Positions 2,250 to 26,200 of a DNA stretch of 64,000 nucleotides are shown here, piece after piece. The DNA is taken from the NCBI RefSeq assembly GCF_026151205.1, contig NC_087080.1, positions 17,275,337-17,339,336 on the forward strand. The letters are read 5' to 3'. The stretch comes from Bolinopsis microptera (Eukaryota > Ctenophora > Tentaculata > Lobata > Bolinopsidae). A model generated the notes under the pieces. The model ran no database searches and was not told where the DNA came from. It worked only from the letters and a program-made list of their open reading frames with translations. Numbering within the stretch: position 1 is the first letter of the stretch; every line of letters starts with the position of its first letter. The translations under genes and the position numbers were made by a program.

Positions 2250-5200
2250 CTGGGGTTATCACTTTGGTTATTCAGTCATTTCTGTCGCAGGATAATTAGA
2301 AATAAAAGCGAGATTTAATGTTTAAACGATTTATAGAGATTACAGTTTTAATATAAAATATAAATCAAATATGACTAGAATGCAATTTAACGTGCATAGA
2401 CTTACTGAGATAGAGTACATTCCACAGCAAGTATAGAGTAACAGTTGATAGTTCCACATCTAGCATTCCAACATCACACAACACATCTATACACTGGGTT
2501 ACCTGATGAAGAGGGGCTAATAACACATCTCAACAACAAGGAAATATCGTAAACCTATTGTCAAATATCGGTATCAAGTAATAAATGTAATATATTCATA
2601 TTTCATAAACTCAACATACTATTTTGGAAGGAAGTTTATTGTGAAACTCTTTGAATTTAGTGATGTTAATCAACACTCCGCACGCCTTATACACCAAATC
2701 ACTGTTCTCAGAATCTGGGAATGAAATAATCTTAATTAGTTTTACTATTGTTTTTAATATTGTTATATGTCATGTAAATAAACTTGAAAACTTTATTCCT
2801 CTCTTCCGACTAGACCTATGATATGGGCTATGGCTCTAACATTACTATACTATATATATTTAATACTTACAACACTACTATATAACAAATAATTTGAGGA
2901 AACGATGTAACAGAGTCGATATATTTTAATGTTGCCATGGGGTGGCAAGTCCCCATACATCGCAGTCCGGTAGTTTCATTGCGTCATAATATAACGTTAC
3001 GTGAAGGTAAAGAAAACTATGACCCACCGAGAAGAGTGGCTGCAATCTCAATAACGTGCTTATCTCCAGCAAGCTTTTCCACTACATCGTGATATTGAGT
3101 CAGATTACCCAGCACTCCGAGTGTCTGAGGATAAATCAATTAATCATTAATCGGCTGATTCATTACGTTATTTTAATGCAGAATAACTAATATCATAAAT
3201 CTGATTACATAGAACGCCTGCACCGAGATAGTGCCAGTTAATGAGCAACACTATTCACTAACTTCTATAGTAATAGCCGTGTTGTTGACAGCGAGCAGTC
3301 GGATAAGGAAGTCGGTGAGAATACCCCTGTGTTTAACAAACACTGAACCCTCCTTGTTATGATACGACATATTGTTCAGCCCACACAATACGTTCAGTGA
3401 TATCTGGATACATGTTGTTAAGTGTCAATACCATTAATTAGATATAAAGCAGCACACAACACGTTCAGTGATATCTGGATACATGTTGTTAAGTGTCAAT
3501 ACCATTAATTAGATATAAAGCAGCACACAACACGTTCAGTGATATCTGGATACATGTTGTTAAGTGTCAATACCATTAATTAGATATAAAGCAGCACACA
3601 ACACGTTCAGTGATATCTGGATACATGTTGTTAAGTGTCAATACCATTAATTAGATATAAAGCAGCACACAACACGTTCAGTGATATCTGGATACATGTT
3701 GTTAAGTGTCAATACCATTAATTAGATATAAAGCAGCACACAACACGTTCAGTGATATCTGGATACATGTTGTTAAGTGTCAATACCATTAATTAGATAT
3801 AAAGCAGTATCCCATATCAATAATCCATACTATTAAAGATACAGAATGCTGAAATAATTTAAAAATAACATGAATTTATACAAATCTAAATTTAAACTAC
3901 AACTTGAACTTCTACATTTAGAATGATCCTGAAGGGGGATTATTTAAAACATAACACGAAAAGATTGTTTAGCAGTGCCCAGTGACTGTCGATGAAGCAG
4001 AAAACTACAATGACAGCCTTGGTGGTGCCATCGATCACATACCACCCCACAATTTACTATGCGTTGTAGGAGACCTCAATGCGCATGTCTCATCATCAGG
4101 AAACTGGACTTCTTTCCGTTTAAAGGGTCCAGCAAACCGAAATGGTAGACTGCTAGAGGATATGTTGTTGGAGCGACAGCTAGAAATCACAAACACCAGA
4201 TTTCAGAAGCGAAGAGGTAAACTCTGGACATATCTTTAAGTTATGAGTCAGAGTAGATCTCAAATCGACTTCACCATTTGCTGGAAGAAATGGCGGAACG
4301 AACTCCGAAGCATATGGTAGTTTCCACAGTATTGGCTAAGATCACAGAGTAGTCGTAGCAAGGGTTAAGCTTAGTCTCCGGATGAGCGAAACGGAGAAGA
4401 GGGATCCGGTTCTGGACTTGTCTAAACTTAAAACTGACATCGCTCTACAAGAGAGATATACAGTATAAAATAAAAACAGATTTTCTATACTTGAATAGGA
4501 TGATCAGACAGCAACAGAAAGGTATCAATGCTTCATTGATGCGAATAGTACAACTTCTCCATTTTTGCTCCCTACAAAGGAGAAAAAGAAAAGAAGTAAA
4601 ATCTCAGCGACTCCAAGTGTTGAGGTTGCTAGGCTGAAGCTGAGGGAATGTAGCATAAAAGTTTACCTCATGTATCTTAGCTTGAGAAGCAATCTGACCA
4701 AGTGACACGAACATCTTTATGAGTTGAGGTGTTACTGATACGGCTATTTTCTGAAAAACAAATATTTAAACTTTGGCTAGTAAGGTAATTAAAAAAGGTT
4801 TTTAACTAGTTAGTTATCAACCATTTCGTTCGTATAACGGCAAATAGGTATAATGTCGCGCCTATTTTACCCATATTAGGGGTGTATATGTAGTATGTCG
4901 CGCCTATTTTACCCATATTAGGAGTGTATATGTAGTATGAATCAGGAAGCGGGGGTAAGAGGAGCGAAAATGGGCCAACTTTTTGGGCTCATTTGGCCAA
5001 TCTGCCATTATCTAATTTACCTTTAATTGGGTTTCTGACATTTTATATTTACCAGAGTGGACCAGCAATACATACACATGATATTGTATTGTCAGAAAAT
5101 AGTTTGGACTGTAGATGTTTTGGATTGTAGATACTAAAAGGTTTATCATAAAATAACCACGTTGTACATAAGTAATTACGTTGTACATAAGTAATTAAAC

Positions 5201-8200
5201 TGGACTGTAGATAATTGTTAATAATAATGGACTTTAGTTCCAACTATGTAAAAACTTCTGATGGGGTAACATCCAAACTTGCACAAATTATTTGTCTTAA
5301 AGCTATCTTACTATCTAGAAATTTTCAAGAAAATCGTATCGTTGGATCTCCATATATAATAATATGCTTTGGAACCACTGAAAACCACCGAATTGGATAT
5401 ATTTTTTGTGTTTAAGGTAATATCATAAACTTGGCACATAGAAACTCGCTCAAACTCCTGGAGATAATTCGTCCTATAACCACCATACTTTATGGAAAGT
5501 TTTAAGAAAATCGTACGGTAGGATCCGACATAAACTATTGTCCAAATAACCTATTTTCTGAGTCGGACAGATGTCGCTGTCGGACAGATGTCGCCCAATC
5601 ACTTGATGGGTATGCGAATAGTTATACACATTGTAATCCAGATCTTGCATGGGAGCTTAGAAATAAAAATTTACTGCAAAATAGCGATCAACATTTCTTA
5701 CTTCATTTTGAAGAGTGTTGGTAATAACCCGAACTGCTTTACACAGAACATCCTTTGTTATTGTTTGCTTCTCTTTTGTCGTCTTGTCCCCTAATTTCGC
5801 CTTGTAAACTGTAATTCAAGATTATTCAGAAATTATTTGGATCTGAACTGATCCCAAACAAGGAGAATGAAAGGAATTACTCCTAGCAGTATCCCGGAGG
5901 AGTTCATAACACAAAACGCCTGACACTTAGTGTCATATTAAGATAACCCCTCGTGCTATTTATGATGATAATTTGATCATCATTAATAAATCGTGTTTAA
6001 TTAGATAGGTATATTAACATCTGTTATGTTTGTTAATTAATATGTTGGTTAATCAATATCTTACTATATATAAAACGAGACGATATATTATACTAACTAG
6101 CAGGAACCCGTCTAACCCTAAAATGGTGTCAAGACTCAAGAGACTAAAACAATTATTACCTATTTAATTCGCGTTTTTGACACCACTTGGGGTACCAAAT
6201 TTTGGGCTCTAAAACTCCTATTTCTTGGCCAATTTTTTATTTTTTCATGCTGATTTGGAGGCCATTAAAGCATTTGACCCAGTCAAAAAAGTTTCAGTTG
6301 TATATCTTTTACGGTTTTTGCAGAAATTCGCGTTAAAGTTGATGCCGTGGTGTCAGTAAAATGGCACGGATAAATATATATATATATATACAACAACTAT
6401 TTATTATATATATATTATATATATATATATATATATAATAAATAGTTGTTGTTTGGTTTCCCAAAGAGAGTGCTCGACTGCAGTTAAGCAGGAGCATTAT
6501 AATTCGAACAATTGAAACAAATCAAATTGGCGGGCAAACGATCCGTTTCATGATATGTATAAAAACAATACCAATCATCAGTGCCAAATAGAATAATGAA
6601 TTGTAGCGCTATGACATGTTGCTCCTTTATAAAATAATTTTTATCGATCATGAAACATTTTCAAAATTATCAAAATTTACAAAATTTCCAAAAAGACAGT
6701 TTATTGTGTCCGTCCCAATTTTAAAATTTTAAAATTGTCTATGAGTATGAAGTAAGGTAGTAAGATATCTTTGGCTTTTAAAGTTGTAAACTGCGTTGGC
6801 CTTCGTGTAGTGGTAGAGGAAAATTCTTTACTGAGTTCCGTGAAGCTGGTAGAACTAGGATCCGTATTTGAGAGTTAATTGTTGATTCTGGTTATCAAAC
6901 GAGAGTGCTCAACAACGACGAGTCGAAGGAGCATAACTAATAAATAGTTGTTGTTTGGTTTCCCAAAGAGAGTGCTCGACTGCAGTTAAGCAGGAGCATT
7001 ATAATTCGAACAATTGAAACAAATCAAATTGGCGGGCAAACGATCCGTTTCATGATATGTATAAAAACAATACCAATCATCAGTGCCAAATAGAATAATG
7101 AATTGTAGCGCTATGACATGTTGCTCCTTTATAAAATAATTTTTATCGATCATGAAACATTTTCAAAATTATCAAAATTTACAAAATTTCCAAAAAGACA
7201 GTTTATTGTGTCCGTCCCAATTTTAAAATTTTAAAATTGTCTATGAGTATGAAGTAAGGTAGTAAGATATCTTTGGCTTTTAAAGTTGTAAACTGCGTTG
7301 GCCTTCGTGTAGTGGTAGAGGAAAATTCTTTACTGAGTTCCGTGAAGCTGGTAGAACTAGGATCCGTATTTGAGAGTTAATTGTTGATTCTGGTTATCAA
7401 ACGAGAGTGCTCAACAACGACGAGTCGAAGGAGCATAACTAATAAATAGTTGTTGTTTGGTTTCCCAAAGAGAGTGCTCGACTGCAGTTAAGCAGGAGCA
7501 TTATAATTCGAACAATTGAAACAAATCAAATTGGCGGGCAAACGATCCGTTTCATGATATGTATAAAAACAATACCAATCATCAGTGCCAAATAGAATAA
7601 TGAATTGTAGCGCTATGACATGTTGCTCCTTTATAAAATAATTTTTATCGATCATGAAACATTTTCAAAATTATCAAAATTTACAAAATTTCCAAAAAGA
7701 CAGTTTATTGTGTCCGTCCCAATTTAATTAAAATTGTCTATGAGTATGAAGTAAGGTAGTAAGATATCTTTGGCTTTTAAAGTTGTAAACTGCGTTGGCC
7801 TTCGTGTAGTGGTAGAGGAAAATTCTTTACTGAGTTCCGTGAAGCTGGTAGAACTAGGATCCGTATTTGAGAGTTAATTGTTGATTCTGGTTATCAAACG
7901 AGAGTGCTCAACAACGACGAGTCGAAGGAGCATAACTAATAAATAGTTGTTGTTTGGTTTCCCAAAGAGAGTGCTCGACTGCAGTTAAGCAGGAGCATTA
8001 TAATTCGAACAATTGAAACAAATCAAATTGGCGGGCAAACGATCCGTTTCATGATATGTATAAAAACAATACCAATCATCAGTGCCAAATAGAATAATGA
8101 ATTGTAGCGCTATGACATGTTGCTCCTTTATAAAATAATTTTTATCGATCATGAAACATTTTCAAAATTATCAAAATTTACAAAATTTCCAAAAAGACAG

Positions 8201-11200
8201 TTTATTGTGTCCGTCCCAATTTTAAAATTTTAAAATTGTCTATGAGTATGAAGTAAGGTAGTAAGATATCTTTGGCTTTTAAAGTTGTAAACTGCGTTGG
8301 CCTTCGTGTAGTGGTAGAGGAAAATTCTTTACTGAGTTCCGTGAAGCTGGTAGAACTAGGATCCGTATTTGAGAGTTAATTGTTGATTCTCTCAAATTAT
8401 TCTATTTGGCACTGATGATTGGTATTGTTTTTATACATATCATGAAACGGATCGTTTGCCCGCCAATTTGATTTGTTTCAATTGTTCGAATTATAATGCT
8501 CCTGCTTAACTGCAGTCGAGCACTCTCTTTGGGAAACCAAACAACAACTATTTATTAGTTATGCTCCTTCGACTCGTCGTTGTTGAGCACTCTCGTTTGA
8601 TAACCAGAATCAACAATTAACTCTCAAATACGGATCCTAGTTCTACCAGCTTCACGGAACTCAGTAAAGAATTTTCCTCTACCACTACACGAAGGCCAAC
8701 GCAGTTTACAACTTTAAAAGCCAAAGATATCTTACTACCTTACTTCATACTCATAGACAATTTTAAAATTGGGACGGACACAATAAACTGTCTTTTTGGA
8801 AATTTTGTAAATTTTGATAATTTTGAAAATGTTTCATGATCGATAAAAATTATTTTATAAAGGAGCAACATGTCATAGCGCTACAATTCATTATTCTATT
8901 TGGCACTGATGATTGGTATTGTTTTTATACATATCATGAAACGGATCGTTTGCCCGCCAATTTGATTTGTTTCAATTGTTCGAATTATAATGCTCCTGCT
9001 TAACTGCAGTCGAGCACTCTCTTTGGGAAACCAAACAACAACTATTTATTAGTTATGCTCCTTCGACTCGTCGTTGTTGAGCACTCTCGTTTGATAACCA
9101 GAATCAACAATTAACTCTCAAATACGGATCCTAGTTCTACCAGCTTCACGGAACTCAGTAAAGAATTTTCCTCTACCACTACACGAAGGCCAACGCAGTT
9201 TACAACTTTAAAAGCCAAAGATATCTTACTACCTTACTTCATACTCATAGACAATTTTAAAATTTTAAAATTGGGACGGACACAATAAACTGTCTTTTTG
9301 GAAATTTTGTAAATTTTGATAATTTTGAAAATGTTTCATGATCGATAAAAATTATTTTATAAAGGAGCAACATGTCATAGCGCTACAATTCATTATTCTA
9401 TTTGGCACTGATGATTGGTATTGTTTTTATACATATCATGAAACGGATCGTTTGCCCGCCAATTTGATTTGTTTCAATTGTTCGAATTATAATGCTCCTG
9501 CTTAACTGCAGTCGAGCACTCTCTTTGGGAAACCAAACAACAACTATTTATTAGTTATGCTCCTTCGACTCGTCGTTGTTGAGCACTCTCGTTTGATAAC
9601 CAGAATCAACAATTAACTCTCAAATACGGATCCTAGTTCTACCAGCTTCACGGAACTCAGTAAAGAATTTTCCTCTACCACTACACGAAGGCCAACCCAG
9701 TTTACAACTTTAAAAGCCAAAGATATCTTACTACCTTACTTCATACTCATAGACAATTTTAAAATTTTAAAATTGGGACGGACACAATAAACTGTCTTTT
9801 TGGAAATTTTGTAAATTTTGATAATTTTGAAAATGTTTCATGATCGATAAAAATTATTTTATAAAGGAGCAACATGTCATAGCGCTACAATTCATTATTC
9901 TATTTGGCACTGATGATTGGTATTGTTTTTATACATATCATGAAACGGATCGTTTGCCCGCCAATTTGATTTGTTTCAATTGTTCGAATTATATATATAT
10001 AGCCAAGTAGCCAATCATAATATATGTATTTCTACCGGTGGCACATACTGGATGACGGTTAGATGAGTACACTACTCTCACAAGCATCTCGAGTCTCTCG
10101 GTGATCCTGCCTCCACACCACACTCAGTCTGGACTCCCTTCCGGCCGACCGAACTATTTTCCTAATATCTCCTAATATAACTTTGATCGAACAAGCCTAA
10201 ATTCATGATGCACTATAAACTTGATTTGAGACAGAAATTTTAGACAATTTATCTGCTTACGTGTAATTTCAAACTCTTATCAGTTACCATGTCTTTTATC
10301 TAATTTTTATCAGCAGATTTATAAATCTGCTGTTCATTTGTAGTTATTACCTTGCTAGTTATGAGTAAATTTTTGCCTTCCATCAATTGAGTGCAGCTTT
10401 CAGTTTTAAAATTTTCAGTTTATTCAGATTTTTCGTTTTCGATATTGCAAATTTTTAATAAATCATGTTCAGATTATGGTGATAATGGATGTAAAGGTAC
10501 TTCAACCGAATTAACAATCCAACCGTGTGTATGACGTGTCCCAGTAGCCAATCATAATATATATATATATATATATCGTCTCGCTTTATATATAGTAAGA
10601 TAGTGTGGCCTAGTGGTTAGAGCATCCGCCTTATGCGCAGAAGGTTAAAGGTTCGAATCCCAGTATCACCTAGTCTAGGGAGTAGCTAAGGATTCATTGG
10701 ATCTATGCGATCTCCTCGGTCGACTCAGTCGAATGATAGGAAAATTAATTGAGGGTAAAATAAGGAGGGGTACCTGTTAAAAGTTTGAGAAACTTCCTAG
10801 GAATAAGATACCCCTTCAGTACATACTGTAAACATAGTACAATTAACTATCAACAAGTGGTGTCAAAATCACTTGAAATTAAATAAATATCATTGTCTAA
10901 AAGTTTCTTGACACCACTTTAGAGAAACACTGCTAGTTATAATAAGTAGCAGGAACCCGTCTTACTATAAAGTGGTGTCAAGACTCAAGAGACTAAAATA
11001 ATTATTACCTATTTAATTCGTTTTTGACACCACTTGGGGGTCCAAATTTTGGGCACTAAAATTCTTATCCCTTGGCCAATTTTTTATTTTTTCATACTGA
11101 TTTGAAGGCCATTAAAGTATTTGACCCAGTCAAAAAAGTTTCAGTTGTATATCTTTTACGGTTTTTGAGGAAAGTCCCGTTAAAGTTGATGCCATGGTGT

Positions 11201-14200
11201 CCGTAAAATGGCACGGAACCATATAGTAAGATGTGTAAAACCTTTGCAAAGAGAAAGCATCGACTCGATGACCGCTCCATTTTGGTGCAGGTGTAATGCA
11301 GCGTGACTGTGCTGTCCTGTTATATTTCCTGCAACAAGTTTATCGGTATAAATTAATTAAAATTATTTTTCATGCTTTTATTTCTGAAGTTGTTTGTTTC
11401 TGAATATTTTTACCACACCCTTTAGAACCACTCTGACATATAATAGTCAATACCTGACACTTGTGTCTGTTGCTAACCATATGGGCGGTATACAAGCACA
11501 TTATTTAATTTCATTTCAAGTTCACGAATAATTTAAAGTGAAAAGTTTATTACTCATGACAAATGTTAATTTACCGAGTACAAAAGCGCATCGTACAAGA
11601 AGTTGAGGATCGTTAGTGTAGTTGTCAATAACTTTGAGGAGCAGATTGAGAAGATGCTTATTGTGAGATATAATGTTACACGTATCCGTAAACAGAGACA
11701 TCCTGGAGAGCAGTCTGCAGCTGTTCAGTAAAACCTGCAAAGTGCGGGGTTTAGCTAATCTCCGTACAATTTCCCATTATATATATAACAATTAATAATG
11801 AACCCTTAACAAAGTTACCCAATGAATTGTTGACATATAAACCAAATACTTGGAATGTTTGGGATACAGAAGAATTATAACATGTAGAAGTAAATTAGAT
11901 TTGGCCTGTAGTGTAAATTATGTTTCAATCATGTTTATGTGACGGTGACCGACAACTAGGAACCTTTCAATCCGGGCTCCCACAGGTATCACATCACACA
12001 TTGCCCAATCAGTGACGTATCATTTGTGATGTGATCCATATTCTAACCATCCGGCATCCTAACAGCCGGACAACCAAGAACCTGGGTAGGGTTCACATGA
12101 CAGTTTAGTAAGTAGCTGTGTATTATGAAGTATATTGAAAAGAGTTTGAGCTCTCGGTATGTGTTCACATTACGGACGGGAGCCGGGTCCGAAAGGGGCT
12201 GGTTCTCGTATTCAAGGATGTGAGCCGAGCATGCAATGAGAGTGATACGAGACGTACAATCATTATCTTTAAAAAATATTTGTTAATTAATGCTCAAATA
12301 TATACAGCTCAGCTGTGAAATCAGTGGATCTGAATGCTTTAAGTATCTCCAGAGGCTTGAGATATTTTGTAGAGTAAATTTTCAAATGCTTTTGTCCTCA
12401 ACGAAAAAAAGTTTCCCATCTGTAGATATCGCACATCAAATTTTTAGATTTGCCTGTAATTCTATCGACGATAGTATCGTAAATGAAATCTTTAAAGAAG
12501 GTTTTAGCAGAAATCGAGTGTGCGTCACGATATTTTCGACAATTTCCAACTAATCAGGCCATTGATTGAGTGAAGAAAGCATTGATAAAGTGCCGGGATC
12601 ACGTATCCGTCAGATATTAAAATGGTTTAGACATTTAATAAACATTAAACCCCAGGGGGGGGGGGGGGGGGGGGGGGCCAAAAGTCAGTTTACATACGTT
12701 GGCCTCAGTCACTGAGTGTCCGTTTGAGATAATTCTTAGAACCTAAGTGAATTATTTTATTTAAAGTTATTGCTGTAATCTTATATAATGTTTGAAAGTT
12801 TGAAAAAAAGGAGAGCAATTTCGAGTCTTACTAGTAATTACAGCTGTTAAACCTCAAACTTTAGCGCGCAATATCTCAGGAACACAAGGTCGGATTTTGA
12901 TGCAGCTATAAAAACTATGTAAAACTGAACAATATGTGTTTAACTGAATGAACAATAAAAAATCAGCGCATATAAACCCCAACCTCAGAATCATTGTAAT
13001 GATGCGTCATAGTGTACTGCAACTGTTCACAGACCCCCGTATCAGCTAGTAACTTCTCCGTCGCTGGAATGTCACATAAATTCCTAAATGCTCCTAAGAT
13101 CTGGATCAGCAGGCTGCTCTTCAATTCACCCTTCATTTCATTACTTGTGTTGCATGTAACAAGATGTCGTTCTAATACCTAAAAAAGAAATGATCTTTAA
13201 AATTTAAATGGATTAAAACGATTCAAAAGTCAAATTACAATGGTAATGTCTGACCCAATACAAGAGAGTGAGAATAATATTGAAACCACCATATTATAAT
13301 AAACAAAATATTAATATGATATTTAACAAAGAAATAATCTCCGCAAATCTTCAGAATGAGATTTAATTTTTTTATGAATTAAACTAACTCTTCTAAAAGT
13401 CAAATAACGGAGTATTTCTGAGTGGAGTTGGGTTAGAAACATATCAGTATGTCTGATTAACGTGGCCGTTATACAGTACAAGGAAAGAAATAGGAATATC
13501 ATCGCATGGGTATTGCAATCAAACGAACTACTATTCTCTAACTCCTAAAACTGTATGGCTGTACTGATGATGACAGATGAGCTGAGGGTGTTGTTGTCCA
13601 ATACAAAGCTACGGGCGAAGGTTAATGGAGTTTTTTCAGCTGGATTGTAAGTCTTTTCGGACTTCGGAGGCGTTGTACTTGTTTTTCGTTGAAAGCTTTA
13701 TTCGAGAAATGGAACCTTTTTGTCAATGAAGACAAAACCGACTTTACTCATGTCTTTAGCTACTACAGGTGAAGTGGAAAATTATTGTTGGGGAACGAAG
13801 TTACGAAGCATGGAGGAAAAGGTTTGGGTCCGTCGTGTGTGGCAAAGCTGATATTCAGCGTCGCATAAACTTGGGATATGCTGCTTTAAACAACTACAAG
13901 AAGGCGTGATAAACTGTCTCTAAACAAACGTGCAATGCTTTAAACTTTTAAACAACTACAAGAAGGCATGGAGTGATAAACTGTCTCTAAACAAACGTGC
14001 AATTCTTTAGTCAACTACAAGAAGGCATGGAGTGATAAACTGTCTCTAAACAAACGTGGAATGCTTTAGTCAACTACAAGAAGGCATGGAGTGATAAACT
14101 GTCTCTAAACAAACGTGCAATGCTTTAGTCAACTACAAGAAGGCATGGAGTGATAAACTGTCTCTAAACAAACGTGCAATGCTTTAGTCAACTACAAGAA

Positions 14201-17200
14201 GGCATGAAGTGGTAAACTGTCTCTAAACAAACGTGCAATGCTTTAGTCAACTACAAGAAGGCATGGAGTGATAAACTGTCTCTAAACAAACGTGCAATGC
14301 TTTAGTCAACTACAAGAAGGCATGGAGTGATAAACTGTCTCTAAACAAACGTGCAATGCTTTATTCAACTACAAGAAGGCATGGAGTGATAAACTGTCTC
14401 TAAACAAACGTGCAATGCTTTAGTCAACTACAAGAAGGCATGAAGTGGTAAACTGTCTCTAAACAAACGTGCAATGCTTTAGTCAACTACAAGAAGGCAT
14501 GAAGTGGTAAACTGTCTCTAAACAAACGTGCAATGCTTTAGTCAACTACAAGAAGGCATGGAGTGATAAACTGTCTCTAAACAAACGTGCAATGCTTTAG
14601 TCAACTACAAGAAGGCATGGAGTGATAAACTGTCTCTAAACAAACGTGCAATGCTTTAGTCAACTACAAGAAGGCATGAAGTGGTAAACTGTCTCTAAAC
14701 AAACGTGCAATGCTTTAGTCAACTACAAGAAGGCATGGAGTGATAAACTGTCTCTAAACAAACGTGCAATGCTTTAGTCAACTACAAGAAGGCATGGAGT
14801 GATAAACTGTCTCTAAACAAACGTGCAATGCTTTAGTCAACTACAAGAAGGCATGGAGTGATAAACTGTCTCTAAACAAACGTGCAATGCTTTAGTCAAC
14901 TACAAGAAGGCATGGAGTGATAAACTGTCTCTAAACAAACGTGCAATGCTTTAGTCAACTACAAGAAGGCATGGAGTGATAAACTGTCTCTAAACAAACG
15001 TGCAATGCTTTAGTCAACTACAAGAAGGCATGAAGTGGTAAACTGTCTCTAAACAAACGTGCAATGCTTTATTCAACTCATTCTCCAGTCCCTAAAATAT
15101 TCCTTCTAAAACTAGATGTTGTTCACTAACAAAAACTTGTATAAACGCTGCAACGCTGACCCATTGTCAAAAAAGTGGATAATGTCCATAGTCTGTGGAG
15201 AATGTTAGAACATGTTTTGCGGGGTCCTGGTGATGGACCAGCGTTTTCCTCCTTCGTTTTTACCCTAAATACACTGAACTTACCAGAAGAAGAGGAAGAC
15301 CCCAAAGCAATTTATTTTTGCTGATTGTGCATGATTTATGTAAACGAAATCTATTTATTAATAATATTTTTGATCTCTACTATCTCCGTAAATTAGCTTA
15401 TGAAGAGAGATATTGGCAAAAACTACATCGAGGCTTTGACATTTAGTTATTTGTTTTAGGGGAAGATGATACTTGGGCGTTGTTAAAAACTTTCATTTTA
15501 ATAACATAGTTACCTGAAGAACGCCATATTGCACGAGTATGTCACCGATAGTGTTATCAGTGTTAGCAGACAAGACCTTCAGCGCCCCAATACAATAAAC
15601 GAATGCGAGACCATTGTCCTCTATCTGAAAGGTTACTGTTTTATGGGTTGGGTGGGGCGAAAGTCAGTGTATATACACAATATAGTCTATATACCATTAG
15701 TACATTTAGTGCACTATGCCAAACCATGCGTTATCCGAAGAAACCCATGAGGACACAATTTTTAAAGTGACACTAAAATGACTTGAGTGCCATGACACTT
15801 TTGGCAGTGAAAGTGAAATGACTAGTAGTCTAGAAAGTGTGGCACAGAAATGCCTTCAATCTTAACTGCCCCTGTAAGGAAAATCCATCAGTTAGTTAAT
15901 ATTTCATAACATACATTATACATAGTACCAAGACAGTGTAAATTTTTAGCATTTTGGACTATAATGTTTAAAAAGTCCATAAAAAACTGAATTTTGCGAC
16001 TTTCCTACGTTTAAAATTCAGAATATATCTCATCCATCTTATTCAAAGATTGAAATACTGATATCTGGATATTATCCGGTTGGAAGAGACAAGGACAAAT
16101 GAAACAAGGAAGTTAGGAGTAAGGGCAAATTTTCGGCGTCAACGCCATCTTCAGGCTAAAATTGTTATAAATGTTAGTATATAATAAATGCTTCTATACT
16201 AGTTAAAATGCTAAATTAAAATTACACACACTGAATACAGGTTACATCAAATGGTATCATACATTACATTGAAAATAGTGATGTACACACGTTTTACACT
16301 CTGTCCAAGTACATAATATCTACTGAACAGCAGGGTCGTGTGCTATTTGTTTAAATTTGTCTTTGAATATGTTGTAAAAGAAATCCCTTAAGCTTCTCGC
16401 ACTCTTCTTTGTTATTGATACTAGGTTTAAATAAATTAATGTAGTAAGCTTCTGTCACTTTACGTTTAATGGTGCTATATAAGTTAATTTCTAAAATATC
16501 GAAGGAAATATCTGGTTCTATGTTATCGTGAAACTCTGAATAATGAGCAGCCAACGCATTATCAGGATAGGTTAAAGGCCTGTTGACTGCTCTTCGATGC
16601 TCTGAAAATCTATCGTGTGCTGTTCTACTCGTTTCCCCTATATATAGCTCTTGACATAATTTACACGTAACTTTGTATATGACACATTTTGGTTTGCAGT
16701 CGTGATTTGTTGTGATGAGTGGACATATGATACAGTTTGGTATGGTGCAGTGTGGTTTGTCGTGTGGTCGTGATGAACATAGGATCTCTGAGAGTTTCTT
16801 ACCTGGTGTGAATATGAATTTGACCGGTAAGTTGTGTGAGAGGGCAAATTGAGTGACTTCTTTGGAAAATGGCTCGTTGATGAATGGTAGAGTGCATGTT
16901 ACGTGGTCGGTATCTTGTATGTTTGACGATGAAGGGTTATGACGTGTTGTAGGTGAGAGAGGGTGAAGTCGTCCTGTTTTGTTTATACGTCGTGGGTCTT
17001 GGTAACCGTTGTTGACCAACAAGTTGTCTACTATCTTCATGGACTCTTCTTTATACTCTGGTGTTGATGAGCAAAAAGCAGCCGTTTTGTAGAAGTTCTT
17101 GATGGTTGCTACTTTAGTTCCCTCATTGTGGTGGCTGTTGGCGTGCAGTGTGATATTCTTTTTCTGCTTCTTTCTGTAGAATTTGTGGTGTAGTGTTCCC

Positions 17201-20200
17201 TGTTCGTCGATCTTTATCTGGGTGTCGAGGAATGGGGTGAAATCCTGACGGCTTTCCGGATAGTCAATTTCCCATTTGAGCAACTGGTCTGGGTCCTCGT
17301 TTGAGATGGACTCCACTATCCTCAGAGCTTCTTCTTTGGAGCTGGCTAGAGATGAGTAGGATGTGTAATTATGACAGCAAAACAGTAGACTTATTTAAAT
17401 CACATAATACCCAACTACCGACTATTTATTTAATACAGAAAACTCATAAATTTGATTGTGATGTCTTAGTTTCAGATGTAGATATTATTTCTAATTGTAA
17501 AATACGTCCAATTGTGTCTTGTATAAATTCCCCTTCTGAGAAGCTTGCTTGGATTGTTAAATCTATTCTATCTCCTCTGCTTAATCATGTTCCATCTCAC
17601 CTGAGCAATATACACACTCACCTAGAAGAGCTTCAAAACATGTCACATCAACAACTCTCAGGTCTCTCATTCTTCACAGCTGACGTCACAGCACTGTACA
17701 CAAACATCAACATCAGTGGCTGCATTCAAGACCTCATTACACTCACCGAAGAACATTGGGAAGACCTCGACACCTGGGGTCTAACACTCACGCACATCCA
17801 CAAGATCCTTGAATTCGTCTTCACCAACTCATACTTTACATATCACTCAAGACTCTACCTCCAGAAAATTGGTCTCTTCATGGGGTGCCAACCATCACCA
17901 ATAGGAGCGATAGTACGAGTATATATGTTCGAGAGAAGATCGATTTACACTGATTTACACGTCTCATTCTACCGGAGATACGTGGATGATGCCGGGAGTC
18001 TAGCCAGCTCCAAAGAAGAAGCTCTGAGGATAGTGGAGTCCATCTCAAACGAGGACCCAGACCAGTTGCTCAAATGGGAAATTGACTATCCGGAAAGCCG
18101 TCAGGATGTCACCCCATTCCTCGACACCCAGATAAAGATCGACGAACAGGGAACACTACACCACAAATTCTACAGAAAGAAGCAGAAAAAGAATATCACA
18201 CTGCACGCCAACAGCCACCACAATGAGGGAACTAAAGTAGCAACCATCAAGAACTTCTACAAAACGGCTGCTTTTTGCTCATCAACACCAGAGTATAAAG
18301 AAGAGTCCATGAAGATAGTAGACAACTTGTTGGTCAACAACGGTTACCAAGACCCACGACGTACTTACAAAACAGGACGACTTCACCCTCTCTCACCTAC
18401 AACACGTCATAACCCTTCATCGTCAAACATACAAGATACCGACCACGTAACATGCACTCTACCATTCATCAACGAGCCATTTTCCAAAGAAGTCACTCAA
18501 TTTGCCCTCTCACACAACTTACCGGTCAAATTCATATTCACACCAGGTAAGAAACTCTCAGAGATCCTATGTTCATCACGACCACACGACAAACCACACT
18601 GCACCATACCAAACTGTATCATATGTCCACTCATCACAACAAATCACGACTGCAAACCAAAATGTGTCATATACAAAGTTACGTGTAAATTATGTCAAGA
18701 GCTATATATAGGGGAAACGAGTAGAACAGCACACGATAGATTTTCAGAGCATCGAAGAGCAGTCAACAGGCCTTTAACCTATCCTGATAATGCGTTGGCT
18801 GCTCATTATTCAGAGTTTCACGATAACATAGAACCAGATATTTCCTTCGATATTTTAGAAATTAACTTATATAGCACCATTAAACGTAAAGTGACAGAAG
18901 CTTACTACATTAATTTATTTAAACCTAGTATCAATAACAAAGAAGAGTGCGAGAAGCTTAAGGGATTTCTTTTACAACATATTCAAAGACAAATTTAAAC
19001 AAATAGCACACGACCCTGCTGTTCAGTAGATATTATGTACTTGGACAGAGTGTAAAACGTGTGTACATCACTATTTTCAATGTAATGTATGATACCATTT
19101 GATGTAACCTGTATTCAGTGTGTGTAATTTTAATTTAGCATTTTAACTAGTATAGAAGCATTTATTATATACTAACATTTATAACAATTTTAGCCTGAAG
19201 ATGGCGTTGACGCCGAAAATTTGCCCTTACTCCTAACTTCCTTGTTTCATTTGTCCTTGTCTCTTCCAACCGGATAATATCCAGATATCAGTATTTCAAT
19301 CATGAGACTAATAAACAGCGAACTACTCCGTTATTTGATATTCAAAGATTATTTGGATTTTGGTCGGAATACTTAAACTGTGCCCAAAATGAGTAAAAAG
19401 TCATTGATTTGGTAAAATTTTGAAGGCCCATACTTTTGATCAGCTTATGAATGAACTGTAACAACTTCCAAGAAACGTTGGTCTGTAATTATGTTACCTA
19501 GGAAAAACCTATTGTGTGCCTGTATTCAGTAAAAATTCACTCAAAAAATTACGATTGAGTTTCTTTACATTGCAGTAGCTAGACAGCAACAAATTATAAC
19601 GTTTTTATATCATACTGTCGAGATTAAGTCTGCTCAAAAAAATATCAATGGTATGAACACACTGCTCCCTCACACCGCTCCCTCAAACTCTCAAACAATG
19701 TTCTCAACTAAAAAGAGTGCCATTTAACAGTAAAAATGACCATTTCCGTCGAATAAGTCACTTTTTACTGATTTTCAGGACACATATGCTGTTTAATTTG
19801 TCAGAATACAACTAAACTAAGATTTATATCTGCAACATAATCGATTCGGTGGTTAGATAAGATTTCAATAATGCTGATATTGACTTATAATAGTTGGTAA
19901 TTCCCAAGTTGGCTGATGTTGCAGGTTTTGTAGTATTACTAGTCCAACATTTAGGACATTGATCATTTTGGGAAACTTCCACCCTTGTGTCATGTGATCA
20001 ACCTCCGCGTCCGCCCTCGCGACTTCCGCCCTCGAGTCAAACCATTTAGGAAACTTCCGCCCTTGAGTCCTACGCCTTTGGGACTTCCGTCCTCGCGACC
20101 TCCGCCATCGCGATTTCCGCCCTCGCGACCGTTGGCTGCAGCAGTCACTACAGCTGATTAGTGGCACTCTAATATTTTTATCTCTTTTTGAGCCCTTTAT

Positions 20201-23200
20201 GTACATATTACTTTTCGAAATAGATGCTCAAACTAAGACTAACATACCATGGATCAAGAAATAAACAATTTTTGTCTTTTTACATCTTTCTATATGACTG
20301 ATATAGTGATATACTGAATTTGGGCACTCGGGACATGATTAAGTGTAAGCAATACAGAGTTCAAGCCTTCTTTTAACTGATTTTAACTGATCTTGAATCT
20401 AAAAGTCAATGAGGTGACTGAAAAAGAAAACTGAAATTTTAATACTTATTTGATCAATTTTTAAAATAAAATTCCAACCTAATTTAGCTCTTTCTAGTCC
20501 CCTGCTACACGGCATGTAAACAGGGATTGGCTAGTTAGAGGCGGTCCGTGTAGGCCTTACACTGTGCTTTCAGCAATACTCATAAGTATTTCCGTGGCTG
20601 TGGTTGCAATGCGCCTAGTCTACTGGAATGATTCTTCGGAATTTCGCTGGATTGTACAACTTTCGTCTTGGTAGATTCCAAACACAAGGAAATTTTCCTC
20701 TTGGTTGGTAATATACTCAATGATGGAAGTATAGTGTATTGGCTATGCCCCGCTTACTAGTTTAGCTCTTTCTAGTCCCCTGCTACACGGCATGTAAACA
20801 GGGATTGGCTAGTTAGAGGCGGTCCGTGTAGGCCTTACACTGTGCTTTCAGCAATACTCATATGTCTAGGTAAACTATAGGTAAAAATATAATATTAATC
20901 ATAAGCTAAAATGTACTAATCTTTGTATTCTAAATGGGGAAAAAGAAAAAACATTGTCAGTCAGTCGAGAAAATTGTCAGTCAGGCTATATGGCAGTCGT
21001 ATTCAGATATAGAAATGACTTTTTGCTGGATTCTGTCACCTACTGGAATTGCTAATGATGACTAAAATGCTGAAATATTTTTTAGCAAAATGTAACGAAA
21101 TTGATGAAATTAGTGATTTGGAGGTTAAAATGGTTTGCTGTTTTTGGCACAGCTGCTGAATATTTTCACTTCATCCTATGTAGTATGTACATTGTACAAA
21201 TGTATGGTTGCACTTTAAAAAGCATTATGACTTTTACTTCATTTTGTGCACTCTACTTTGAAAAAGGTAAAATCAGCAAAACAGTGTCACTTTTTTAAAA
21301 CGTGTCTATTACGAGAAGAAAATTTAAACTTTTTTTGTAAAGATTTTGCACTTGGTACTATGACCCAAAAATTGGAAAAAGTTACTGCATTATGTTTCCC
21401 GTTTGCAGTCTATGATTTTTCTAAGTGATTATGTTGACTGAAATCCAAGAGTTTTGTGTTCAAAACGTTCTAATACAGACTGAAATAACCAGAATTTACA
21501 AGTACAATGGAAGTAGATTTAAATAAGTTACAATTAAATACTAATTCTAGACCTAAGTCTTTTAAGGAGAACTAAGGAGAACTATTACTCTCAAACCCAA
21601 TTTTTTTTCGGGAGTCAGAACTTGCTTTCAAACCTTTGCATTGCTTTCCTTAATTAGAATACTGTTATCTGATTGTTTTCATCAATTTATTATATATTTT
21701 TGATATATTCTAACCGCAATCATCGAGTAAAGTGCACCTTTTGCTGATTGAGAACGTTTAACAAACTGTGAACAGTTTTCTCCTCTAAAAAGATGGCGTC
21801 ATTGTTTTCGCATCGTGTTAGCTTGAAGATTAACTTAGAAATACTAATCAAGTTCTTCTCGTACACTCCCAGGCACAACAGTAGTCTGAAATTACAAAGT
21901 TCCGAGGTTAAATTTGAACAAAATGGATGAATAAATTTTAGTATTTTTAACACGCTTCGAAAATAATAACACGTGACGTGTCTTTCTCAAATGACTTTCA
22001 GGGTTATGATACTTTCAGGGGGGTTAGGGTTTACCCCTGCTGTGATGTGATGGTACAAATTAATACAGCAAATGGAGAGATCAAGTTCTGGTTGTTTGGC
22101 CCCTTCACCTAAAGTGATATATTGACATAATTATAAATATTTTATCACCACGATTATCAACAACCCACAAATAATTCATTTTTAATTTCAAGAATTTTAT
22201 ATAAATGTAATAGATTTGTAGTAAAAATTCTAATAATGGCTCTACGGTTGAAATTGTGCTCGTTACCTGGAAATCTTTAGTAAAAGTCTACTATCTTTTT
22301 TATCAAGCAGGTTAATGAGACATTGGAACACTTTGACTTTGTATTGGTGAGGAAGAACAACTGATCCTGTGAGAAAACCTCCGCGCAACAAACACTCTGA
22401 CAGTTCCTCGACCTGTTGATACACTGTATACTATATACTTATACTATATTATACTGTATACTATACACTGTATACCATACACTGTATACTATACACTGTA
22501 TACTATATACTTATACACTGTATACTATACACTGTATACTATATACTTATACTATACACTGTATACTATATACTTTTACTATATACTGTATACTATACAC
22601 TGTATACTATAAACTGTATACTATACACTGTATACTATATACTTATACACTGTATACTATACACTGTATACTATACATTGTATAATATACACTGTATACT
22701 ATATACTTATACACTGTATACTATACACTGTGTACTATATACTTATACTATATTATACTGTATACTATACACTGTATACTATAAACTGTATACTATACAC
22801 TGTATACTATATACTTATACACTGTATACTATACACTGTATACTATACATTGTATAATATACACTGTATACTATATACTTATACACTGTATACTATACAC
22901 TGTATACTATATACTTATACTATATTATACTGTATACTATACACTGTATACCATACACTGTATACTATACACTGTATACTATATACTTATACACTGTATA
23001 CTATACACTGTATACTATATACTTATACTATACACTGTATACTATATACTTTTACTATATACTGTATACTATACACTGTATACTATAAACTGTATACTAT
23101 ACACTGTATACTATAAACTGTATACTATACACTGTATACTATATACTTATACACTGTATACTATACACTGTATACTATACATTGTATAATATACACTGTA

Positions 23201-26200
23201 TACTATATACTTATACACTGTATACTATACACTGTGTACTATACACTGTATACTATACACTGTATACTATACACTGTATACTATACACTGTATACTATAC
23301 ACTGTATACTATATACTTATACACTGTATACTATACACTGTATACTATATACTTATACTATACACTGTATACTATATACTTTTACTATATACTGTATACT
23401 ATACACTGTATACCATACACTGTATACTATACACTGTATACTATATACTTATACACTGTATACTATACACTGTATACTATATACTGTATACTATATACTT
23501 ATACTATATTATACTGTATACTATACACTGTGTACTATACACTGTATACTATACACTGTATACTATACACTGTATACTATACACTGTATACTATACACTC
23601 CGTAGTATAGGTATATATAGTATAAGTATATAGTACATATAGTATAATATACAGTGTATACTATACACTGTATATTATACTATATGTACTATATACTTAT
23701 ACTATATATACCTATACTACGGATACAATTTAGAAAAATAAATTGTTTTCACATGCAATATTAATTTATAACAAGCGATCTTTAAAATAAACAGTATAAA
23801 TGTAACCTGATTAAGTATGTCCACATTTTCTATCTCCATGTTCAAAGCAGCAAGGATTGGTGTTATCTTCGATCTCCAGTACGCTTCAAAATTGCTACTT
23901 TCTTTCTTTTTCTGTTCTTAAACAGAATCGGTGATAAAGATAGAATCATTGCTTATCATTTTCAATTAAAGCAACAAAATTCGATTTCTTGGGTTTATTA
24001 AGATTGGAAAAGTTTTGGAACTACAAAGAATGAATGGGCAATCACATCGATGTTTTTATCACAGAAACTAAACCGCATATATTTGTGCGACTGGTGATAT
24101 GAGCAGTAAAAAATAACTGTCAAATTTTGCATACCTTCTTCCCGTTTTTGAGTTTGAGGTGAATCTATGGGTGATAAAACTCGTGGAGTAACATTAAGCT
24201 CTGTCAGCTGTGTAAGGTCGATCGAAGAGGAGGAAGAGGTCGGGCGAGTAGTGAACAAACTCCTTTTGTTTTCGCTTGGAGTCTAAAATATGATAACATA
24301 ATTTAATACTTCATGTTAAATGTTTGGCTTTGTGATAAATTGCTCTGAAGTTCTAAACCATTTTCACAACTACAATTAAATACATTTATTGAGGACGTTA
24401 CAAAAGGAATATATTGATTGAAATAAATTTTCGTGCACATACAGAATGAATGGTTAATAATTTAATATATATGTAGACCAAGGTCTGTGCACGGGATGCT
24501 TCCTGGAAGAATCCAGTTCTTTTAGCGGGGCACCCTACCTAAAGCCAAATTGAGATATAATAATCATATTCCTAAGAAATAATCAGAAATCGAATACCAA
24601 TCAAATAATATGATATACGTATAGGAGTAGTAACCATATTTACTATGCAAAATGCCCCAACCACATAGTGTAAATTTATATAGAATTCAAATTCCATATC
24701 ATCATTAAACCTCAATAGTCAATATAATAGCCCAAGCAAAATTAAATAACTTCTTATATACCTTACTGTCATACTACAAATTGATTAAACATTTGAAATC
24801 TGTTAACCAGAGAATAAATTTCTAAACCTAATGCAAGTGAAATAATTTAGATGCAATAATGAATGCCTAATGTGAGTATCATCTGTCAATGTCCTTGTAA
24901 AACAGTCTGTACAAGAGATATGAGTAACTAAAATAGAAGAAAAAACAGGAAGTTGTCGTCTGTTGAAAAATAAATAAAATATCTAGAATATAAATTAGAA
25001 TATAAAATAACATTCAGTCAATGTGTCGTCAATAAACTGTACAATTATCAAATGTTAAAACTGGGTGATACAGTCACCAAAAATAAATACTAAGTATGAT
25101 AAGTTAATAAATTAAATGTGGTCTATAGAACTACCACTAGGTATAATAGGTCAATAAATTAAAAGTGGTTTATAAAACTACCACTGTGCGAATCCCTTCT
25201 CCAGTTAAAACATGTCAGTCATGTGCAAAATCAATCAGAATGGTAAGGTGGTCAAAAAGGGAATATCCTTTCGACATAAATTATATATGCCTCAGATTTA
25301 AAAGAATAAGAAGATACTTAGTTATCGTCGACTATGATTGCAGTGTAAAATTTGTCATATGAATTGTCGACGGTGTAATTAGGGTCTGTTGTTATATTTA
25401 ATGTAGTCTGAGAAATCCTCACTCTCCTCCCGTCCTAAGAGGGTGTTTCTTTTGTCGTTTATACGAACCAAGCACCTCTGCGATAACAAAGTTCACATAT
25501 CATAGGAAAATTTACCATGAACAAATTTAGTATAAAAACCAACATAAGCACCTTTCAAGCCTCAGTGATAAAAAATCCAAAAATTCTTTATAAAATTTCT
25601 CTCGAAATTGATTTTATAGTTGTTTCTGATAGAGGGGAGTGATATCTATCAGCTGCTTTTGGTCCCATGGAAAAATATTGTTCCTAGCCGAAGTTATCGC
25701 CGGTCAAACTCAAAAGTCACCTCTCATGTGTAATTGTATTGTGCGAGCGATTTTCAATCACGCGCCCTGAAAATCGAGTCTAAAAATCTATCTTCTCCTA
25801 TATTTTTTGAGCAATCACCTTGAAACTTTCAGGATATGTTCTAAGGACCATTTAGAAGATTCTGGTGTATCAGAATTTTAAGATAGGCCTTTGAAAATTT
25901 TTCTTCGATTTTGAAAATGTTGAAGATTTTCAAAATCGCTCGCGCAATACAATTACACATGAGCGCTGATCTTTGACCGGCGATACTTCGGCTAGGAACA
26001 ATATTTTTCCATGGGACCAAAAGCAGCTGATAGATATCACTCCCCTCTATCAGAAACAAATTTAAAAAACCAATTTCGAGAGAAATTTCATAAGACCCCT
26101 GTCCCCTTAACATAATAATATTATTGCGATAGGTCATTGAATGTGGAATATGATCTGAAAATATTAGGGGCCACATCCAATCAATATTGAATTGCTTGTA

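Follow-up and report, generated by a model that had tools for sequence, protein, structure and literature searches.

How a palindrome of tandem units in opposite orientations comes to lie in a putative intron is the question raised by a 502-bp repeat array of the ctenophore Bolinopsis microptera. The window analyzed here, which is the whole stretch of 64,000 nucleotides from contig NC_087080.1 (assembly GCF_026151205.1, positions 17,275,337 to 17,339,336 of the forward strand), holds this array in the region that a preliminary description called ARMC2 intron 9. Comparison of the array with its relatives and with the Penelope-like elements (PLEs) of the same genome indicates that it is quite probably one insertion of a non-autonomous retrozyme-like element, which would have been moved by a Penelope-like protein with both strands of the target priming synthesis.

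The array is composed of a forward arm and an inverted arm that meet at one switch, confirming the 502-bp units in opposite orientations of the preliminary description. Mapping onto a reference unit (window positions 6498–6999) gives the following layout, in which S1 and S2 denote putative start sites of reverse transcription:

6436–8390, plus strand: forward arm of about 3.9 units by unit mapping, in complementary DNA (cDNA) sense; the minus strand would correspond to the RNA template
8391–8395: strand-switch junction, 5 nt without unit assignment
8396–9993, minus strand: inverted arm of about 3.2 units, with its outward end at S1
6436–6449, plus strand: left outer end at start site S2, unit position 441, TAATAAATAGTTG
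9984–9993, minus strand: right outer end at start site S1, unit position 1, TATAATTCGA on the minus strand
6370–6435: (TA)n-rich target, left side
9994–10001: short TA run, right side
6338–6371, minus strand: half of host repeat B, which the insertion interrupts
10571–10593, minus strand: the other half of host repeat B, overlapping an inverted flank given in the preliminary description

The forward arm begins with a partial unit from S2, continues with units of 502, 502 and 497 bp and stops at unit position 392. Direct copies are spaced by 502, 502 and 497 bp, and inverted copies by 494, 502 and 502 bp; the longest gap-free complementary arms (6498–7725 and 8766–9993) pair over 1228 nt with 100% identity. 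Two open reading frames (ORFs) of at least 60 aa, counted from stop to stop, touch the array, one of 62 aa (6333–6521, minus strand) and one of 72 aa (8621–8839, plus strand). With only these two short ORFs, the array carries no reverse transcriptase (RT) and endonuclease of its own as a PLE does. The assignment to ARMC2 intron 9 is provisional: a Pfam search at E 0.01 returned no match for four minus-strand ORFs of the region. The unit has at least 144 matches in the 264.65-Mb genome (40 of 266 candidates scored), and this dispersal excludes the array as a chance product. The copies elsewhere that the preliminary description had proposed to look for are thus present, and its view of a mobile, non-coding palindrome is correct.

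The arrangement recurs across the genome. We mapped 38 loci, namely the window and 37 further clusters (L009–L045); all counts are lower bounds. Where the unit matches itself over short internal stretches (around positions 216–245), these matches were removed before flanks, switches and ends were counted. Both orientations are present in 29 of the 38 loci, each with a switch from forward to inverted; L036 alone also switches back in the opposite sense, and does so over a stretch of (TA)n. The 29 switches join scattered unit positions that differ from locus to locus. By comparison, the outer ends are fixed: one lies at S1 (about position 1) and the other at S2 (about position 441) in 26 of 28 simple palindromes, none of which has S1 or S2 at both ends, with the end classes having been defined after the data had been viewed. 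The outer ends mostly adjoin (TA)n. Among the nine single-orientation loci, seven end at an S site on one side only, and two on neither side. Beyond a single-orientation copy in L026 (from 3332 onward), a (GACCCT)n run begins after 15 nt.

The 56 full-length units in 25 loci measure 457–502 bp, with a GC content of 34%. Units differ by a median of 0.25% in one arm, 0.4% between arms and 1.9% between loci. In 14 loci (those with fewer than three units or one arm, and L036, being left out), the columns that depart from the consensus comprise 78 fixed across the two arms, 12 mixed and 98 confined to a single unit; the window itself contributes 8 fixed and 8 mixed columns.

Of 37 loci, 22 have flanks that share at least 10 bp, and in 7 of these the shared stretch is pure TA alternation; among 400 cross-paired flanks the share is 14%. 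L031, whose flank is too short, was left out of both the observed and the null means. The 502 family thus has target duplications above the 4 bp expected of retrozymes. In addition, many insertions interrupt one of two dispersed host repeats within its (TA)n tract: repeat A is split at seven loci (L009, L016, L018, L019, L022, L029 and L034) and repeat B at six (the window, L020, L027, L028, L032 and L037), the far flank being the other half of the repeat. Insert-free copies of both repeats give the empty sites: the halves of repeat A lie 36 and 19 bp apart in L036 and L043, and those of repeat B, 4199 bp apart in the window, lie 0, 10 and 12 bp apart in L012, L037 and L040. This bears on the 35-bp inverted flanks (6054–6088 and 10571–10605), which the preliminary description (as 6062–6086 and 10574–10598) considered as possible ends of a 4.5-kb mobile unit. 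The flanks are real, with 94% identity, but they belong to the dispersed host repeat B and are not ends of a mobile unit. A search for the B end motif (up to 2 mismatches, within 2.5-kb flanks) found it at 8 distinct loci and on both sides in the window alone, so that the flanks do not travel together with the array. We therefore rejected the 4.5-kb composite unit.

At the end of repeat B, window positions 10599–10668 give a tRNA-like match (transfer RNA; Rfam, 38.5 bits) in which ARAGORN finds no tRNA; it is perhaps the head of a short interspersed element, and a tRNA start of the array was rejected since the match lies outside it. Between the array and the host repeat lies a stretch of about 560 bp (9994–10570) with direct repeats at 10003–10034 and 10540–10571, the end of which was also noticed by eye on the right flank of L076.

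The presumed RNA strand of the element, the minus strand of the forward unit, carries in order a hammerhead-like core, S1 with hairpin 1, and S2 with hairpin 2. These features are given here for one example copy:

8406–8460, plus strand: hammerhead-like motif on the RNA strand, with CTGATGA at 8412–8418 and GAAA at 8444–8447
T8456: predicted hammerhead cleavage after this nucleotide
8498–8526, plus strand: hairpin 1, adjoining S1
8563–8593, plus strand: hairpin 2, adjoining S2

Helix II of the core starts with a U-U at its base, as described for axolotl in PMC7229834. Both hairpins have the form GCTC-N-GAGCACTCT, of which 20,000 random units yielded three with at least one copy and none with two. 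Genome-wide, the hairpin pattern has 292 matches, compared with one for the reversed pattern. The same genome contains a 277-bp canonical hammerhead retrozyme (arrays L046–L048), with type I hammerheads called by Rfam and at least 69 genome matches, 67 of them over the cut-off (74 of 35,380 candidates scored). This retrozyme has two GCTC-N-GAGCACTCT hairpins in the order and on the strand found in the 502-bp unit. By eye, A-box- and B-box-like (tRNA-like) stretches are seen in L046, L047 and L048.

A PLE with the same end rule as the 502-bp family lies in the window itself:

16048–19339: PLE1, a head-to-head palindrome with a minus-strand arm at 16048–17350, a plus-strand arm up to 19301 and then a tail of about 38 nt

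The arms of this copy are 1303 nt long and 100% identical, and a 12-bp target duplication, TATTCAAAGATT, brackets them. Its ORF matches, in the order expected of a PLE, an RT (PF00078, E 2e-5) and a GIY-YIG endonuclease (PF01541, E 0.0024), although neither match reaches the Pfam gathering score. Two hallmarks of PLEs are thereby found at 16048–19339: RT and GIY-YIG endonuclease in one ORF, and a head-to-head or pseudo-long terminal repeat (pLTR) arrangement with tail and target duplication. A genome protein search (76 of 1234 candidates scored) placed the family in at least 42 clusters, 19 of which have both strands. These were built from 66 of the 78 rows listed, the 12 left out comprising 10 at 46–48% identity and two short ones (59 aa and 25 aa). 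All 19 strand switches are head-to-head, one of them in an array of the order ---++. Of the 19 palindromes, 11 were examined at their ends, and all 10 readable ones pair an end at site A with an end at site B, which lies about 44 nt beyond site A and accounts for the tail; the right end of the window copy is the reference itself and was assigned by motif, and L061/L062 was left out because its left end is unreadable. With strict end motifs, from which L061/L062 and L065/L066 were left out, target duplications of 10–13 bp were found in 9 of 9 cases, compared with a longest match of 7 bp in 72 cross-pairs. In the tandem PLE1 copy L069, the tail enters the next unit and spans an ATG of the following open frame.

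Two further groups were considered as carriers of the hairpin. In the second PLE group (46–48% identical), GCTC hairpins at the 3' ends were proposed and rejected: five copies on the sense strand (L070–L074) have one GCTC..GAGC stem, which does not continue as GAGCACTCT. One copy of this group (L070:292–382) seems by eye to sit at the TA tract of repeat A. The genome-wide pattern search led to PLE3 (L077/L080), the 3' region of which has a hammerhead-like core and one GCTC-type hairpin. Its frame gives a GIY-YIG match (E 0.0064 on 109 aa), and the GIY-YIG regions of PLE3 and PLE1 are 30% identical over 114 aa (E 8e-5); its RT motif was recognized by eye only, and Pfam returned no match for 399 aa of the frame. 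The PLE3 tail is present on both strands in 6 of 40 clusters, and in five of these the arrangement is head-to-head, with S1 marking one end while the opposite end extends through S2.

The combination of one polarity, two different fixed ends, target duplications and scattered joins points to target-primed synthesis on both strands from two start sites. The element would be transcribed on the minus strand of the forward unit, and its RNA would be used as a circle or a multimer. A PLE RT/GIY-YIG endonuclease, probably as a dimer, would cut both strands of (TA)n about 11–12 bp apart, and each free 3' end would then prime cDNA synthesis on the RNA, with S1 as the start for one strand and S2 for its partner. 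Both polymerases would circle the template several times, and the resulting cDNAs would then be linked wherever they happen to meet. The expected outcome is a series of forward units that switches once to a series of inverted units, with one S1 and one S2 end and a target duplication. A circular or multimeric template would be needed because the arms reach about five units in L014 and L023. The likeness of units within a locus, together with variants fixed through both arms, favors repeated copying of one monomer, and this likeness may also be an indirect sign of a circular RNA form. Both PLEs are candidate movers, PLE1 matching by its behavior and the tentative PLE3 by its RNA motifs.

A more specific form of this mechanism is put forward with somewhat less than even confidence. 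Here, an RT dimer would sit on two neighboring start elements of one RNA, which in retrozymes would be the two hairpins, and each protomer would take one cut strand, so that every complete insertion would be a head-to-head palindrome with one end per site. Both protomers would roll on circular RNA to give kilobases of inverted concatemer, and the common hairpin would tie animal retrozymes to their PLE.

Several observations weigh against two-strand priming by a PLE or narrow it. No common flank of 10 bp is found in 15 of 37 loci, and L027 and L035 have S1 with a non-site end in place of both sites. The loci are partly dependent, as L016 and L024 have a common left flank and a private deletion, and L019 and L026 a common left flank. 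Strong microhomology at the junctions was rejected: matches of at least 1 bp occur in 16 of 29 junctions, compared with 57% simulated, and matches of at least 4 bp in 11 of 29, compared with 21%, which makes any enrichment mild at most. Rfam calls no hammerhead in the 502-bp unit or in the PLE3 tail. The core with three short helices fits a descriptor that 8 of 20,000 random units also fit, the descriptor having been written after the motif had been seen. PLE1 has no GCTC hairpin, and the hairpin-bearing PLE3 is only tentatively a PLE, with one of its two-strand pairs arranged tail-to-tail. In the PLE1 family, the 25-aa antisense row that was left out (in a plus-strand row, C2:4244024) would give a forward-to-inverted order. 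Although the 277-bp retrozyme has both hairpins, just one of its 21 multi-row clusters (and of all 40 clusters) contains copies on both strands; the hairpins alone are thus not the cause of two-ended insertion, and another factor decides between one- and two-ended insertion. In addition, the start sites of the Anolis PLE are the same for both strands in vitro, and its hammerhead mutants have no effect on in vitro insertion (PMC11167929). The former fits either strand taking either site, and the latter may mean that ribozyme cleavage need not be required.

Other routes to an inverted array explain fewer of these observations. A PLE or retrozyme cDNA could prime itself, by folding back or taking an antisense template, to give an inverted repeat with a palindromic junction, as proposed for rotifer head-to-head PLEs with junction palindromes (PMC3846280); two junctions indeed join near-equal unit positions (383/383 in L030 and 366/371 in L034). 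We regard this as unlikely because self-priming would be expected to give the same end twice, whereas S1 and S2 are paired in 26 of 28 palindromes and A and B in all 10 readable ones of PLE1; most junctions join unrelated unit positions, and target duplications bracket PLE1 palindromes in 9 of 9 cases. Twin priming of the LINE-1 kind, with one strand starting at the RNA start site and the other at a random internal position, would account for an inverted part, a scattered junction and the single non-site ends of L027 and L035. It is comparably improbable, in that a random site would scatter the outer end, whereas in 26 of 28 palindromes the position of the second end is fixed too.

A DNA transposon of the Foldback (FB/Galileo-like) type, with terminal inverted repeats of tandem units, would likewise bring units in opposite orientation to a (TA)n target. 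The two ends differ as S1 and S2 in 26 of 28 palindromes where identical inverted termini would be expected, the switch point varies among loci, 9 of 38 loci are single-orientation copies, and the polarity and end rule agree with those of the local PLE, making this origin very improbable. Long palindromes are also a known type of artefact, and fold-back chimeric reads could in principle have produced the window array and its sister loci during library preparation or assembly. This too is highly unlikely, since at 7 repeat A and 6 repeat B loci the far-side flank completes the host repeat that the insertion interrupts, and since 29 loci have different junctions with one polarity. Target priming on both strands is the reading that we retain.

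The 502 family resembles known elements on two sides. Like the metazoan non-LTR retrozymes (PMC7229834), it consists of dispersed, short, non-coding tandem repeats of low GC content (38 loci) with target duplications above 4 bp; these retrozymes have a type I hammerhead, here hammerhead-like, and a circular RNA, here presumed. Its units of 457–502 bp compare with the slightly shorter 150–450 bp of retrozymes, from which it differs in being palindromic, in its S1/S2 ends and in a hammerhead-like motif that Rfam does not call. The PLEs with inverted pLTR and tail (PMC3846280, PMC11167929) have head-to-head inserts, an optional tail at one inverted end, AT-rich targets, two internal RT start sites and a hammerhead, with target duplications of 8–10 bp (PMC3846280). 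By comparison, the 502 family is non-coding, concatemeric on both arms, and has one end per site in 26 of 28 palindromes. Foldback/Galileo elements also have inverted arms of tandem repeats, but the 502 family differs from them in its unequal ends, its locus-dependent switch point and its truncated single-orientation copies.

Retrozymes, inverted PLEs, tails and the use of two RT start sites are each already published. For the Anolis PLE, in vitro measurements reported in 2024 showed extension of both strands and two internal start sites, which lie at the beginning of the ORF (PMC11167929), comparable to the L069 tail over an ATG. How inverted PLE copies arise had not been decided among the competing models in 2013 (PMC3846280), and a 2020 review named PLEs as likely movers of metazoan retrozymes while finding no conserved repeat motif that points to an autonomous partner (PMC7761336). 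The main text of PMC7229834 has no word beginning "inverted", and nothing relevant to inverted retrozymes was among the literature matches listed. In the open-access full-text literature, we found no palindromic retrozyme-like family, no one-end-per-site rule and no hairpin common to retrozymes and PLE-like elements. Our observations add the arrangement itself, the end rule, the target duplications, the common hairpins and PLE1 with the same end rule (PLE3 tentatively). In one genome, start-site usage is thus common to the 502 family and PLE1, and the hairpin with a hammerhead-like core is common to the 502 family and the tentative PLE3. The one-end-per-site rule favors a model in which both strands of the target act as primers, and this agrees with the two-strand extension of PMC11167929. 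Both the autonomous partner of retrozymes and the origin of inverted PLEs become directly testable, and a class of giant intronic inverted repeats would be explained as retroelement products.

The preliminary description also proposed that the transcript could form long double-stranded RNA, and one sister locus fits this. At L036:2504–2830, 49 A>G changes on one strand extend over both hairpin arms, with 4 other substitutions; A>G accounts for 41 of 45 changes in the forward stretch and 8 of 8 in the inverted piece, on the same strand. Changed adenosines by 5' neighbor number 14 of 23 after T, 22 of 42 after A, 9 of 22 after C and 4 of 15 after G. At this one locus, the pattern looks like ADAR-type adenosine-to-inosine editing of a hairpin RNA that would later have been reverse-transcribed and inserted, so that traces of RNA editing may have become permanent in the DNA.

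Elsewhere in the window, a 109-nt direct repeat (20479–20587 and 20757–20865) has a spacing of 278 bp, about the unit length of the retrozyme; no hammerhead was found in the repeat at 20479–20865 at the Rfam gathering score. Minisatellites are present at 1128–1532, 3382–3807, 13953–15078 and 22419–23708, with units of 53, 71, 59 and 7/14 bp, respectively.

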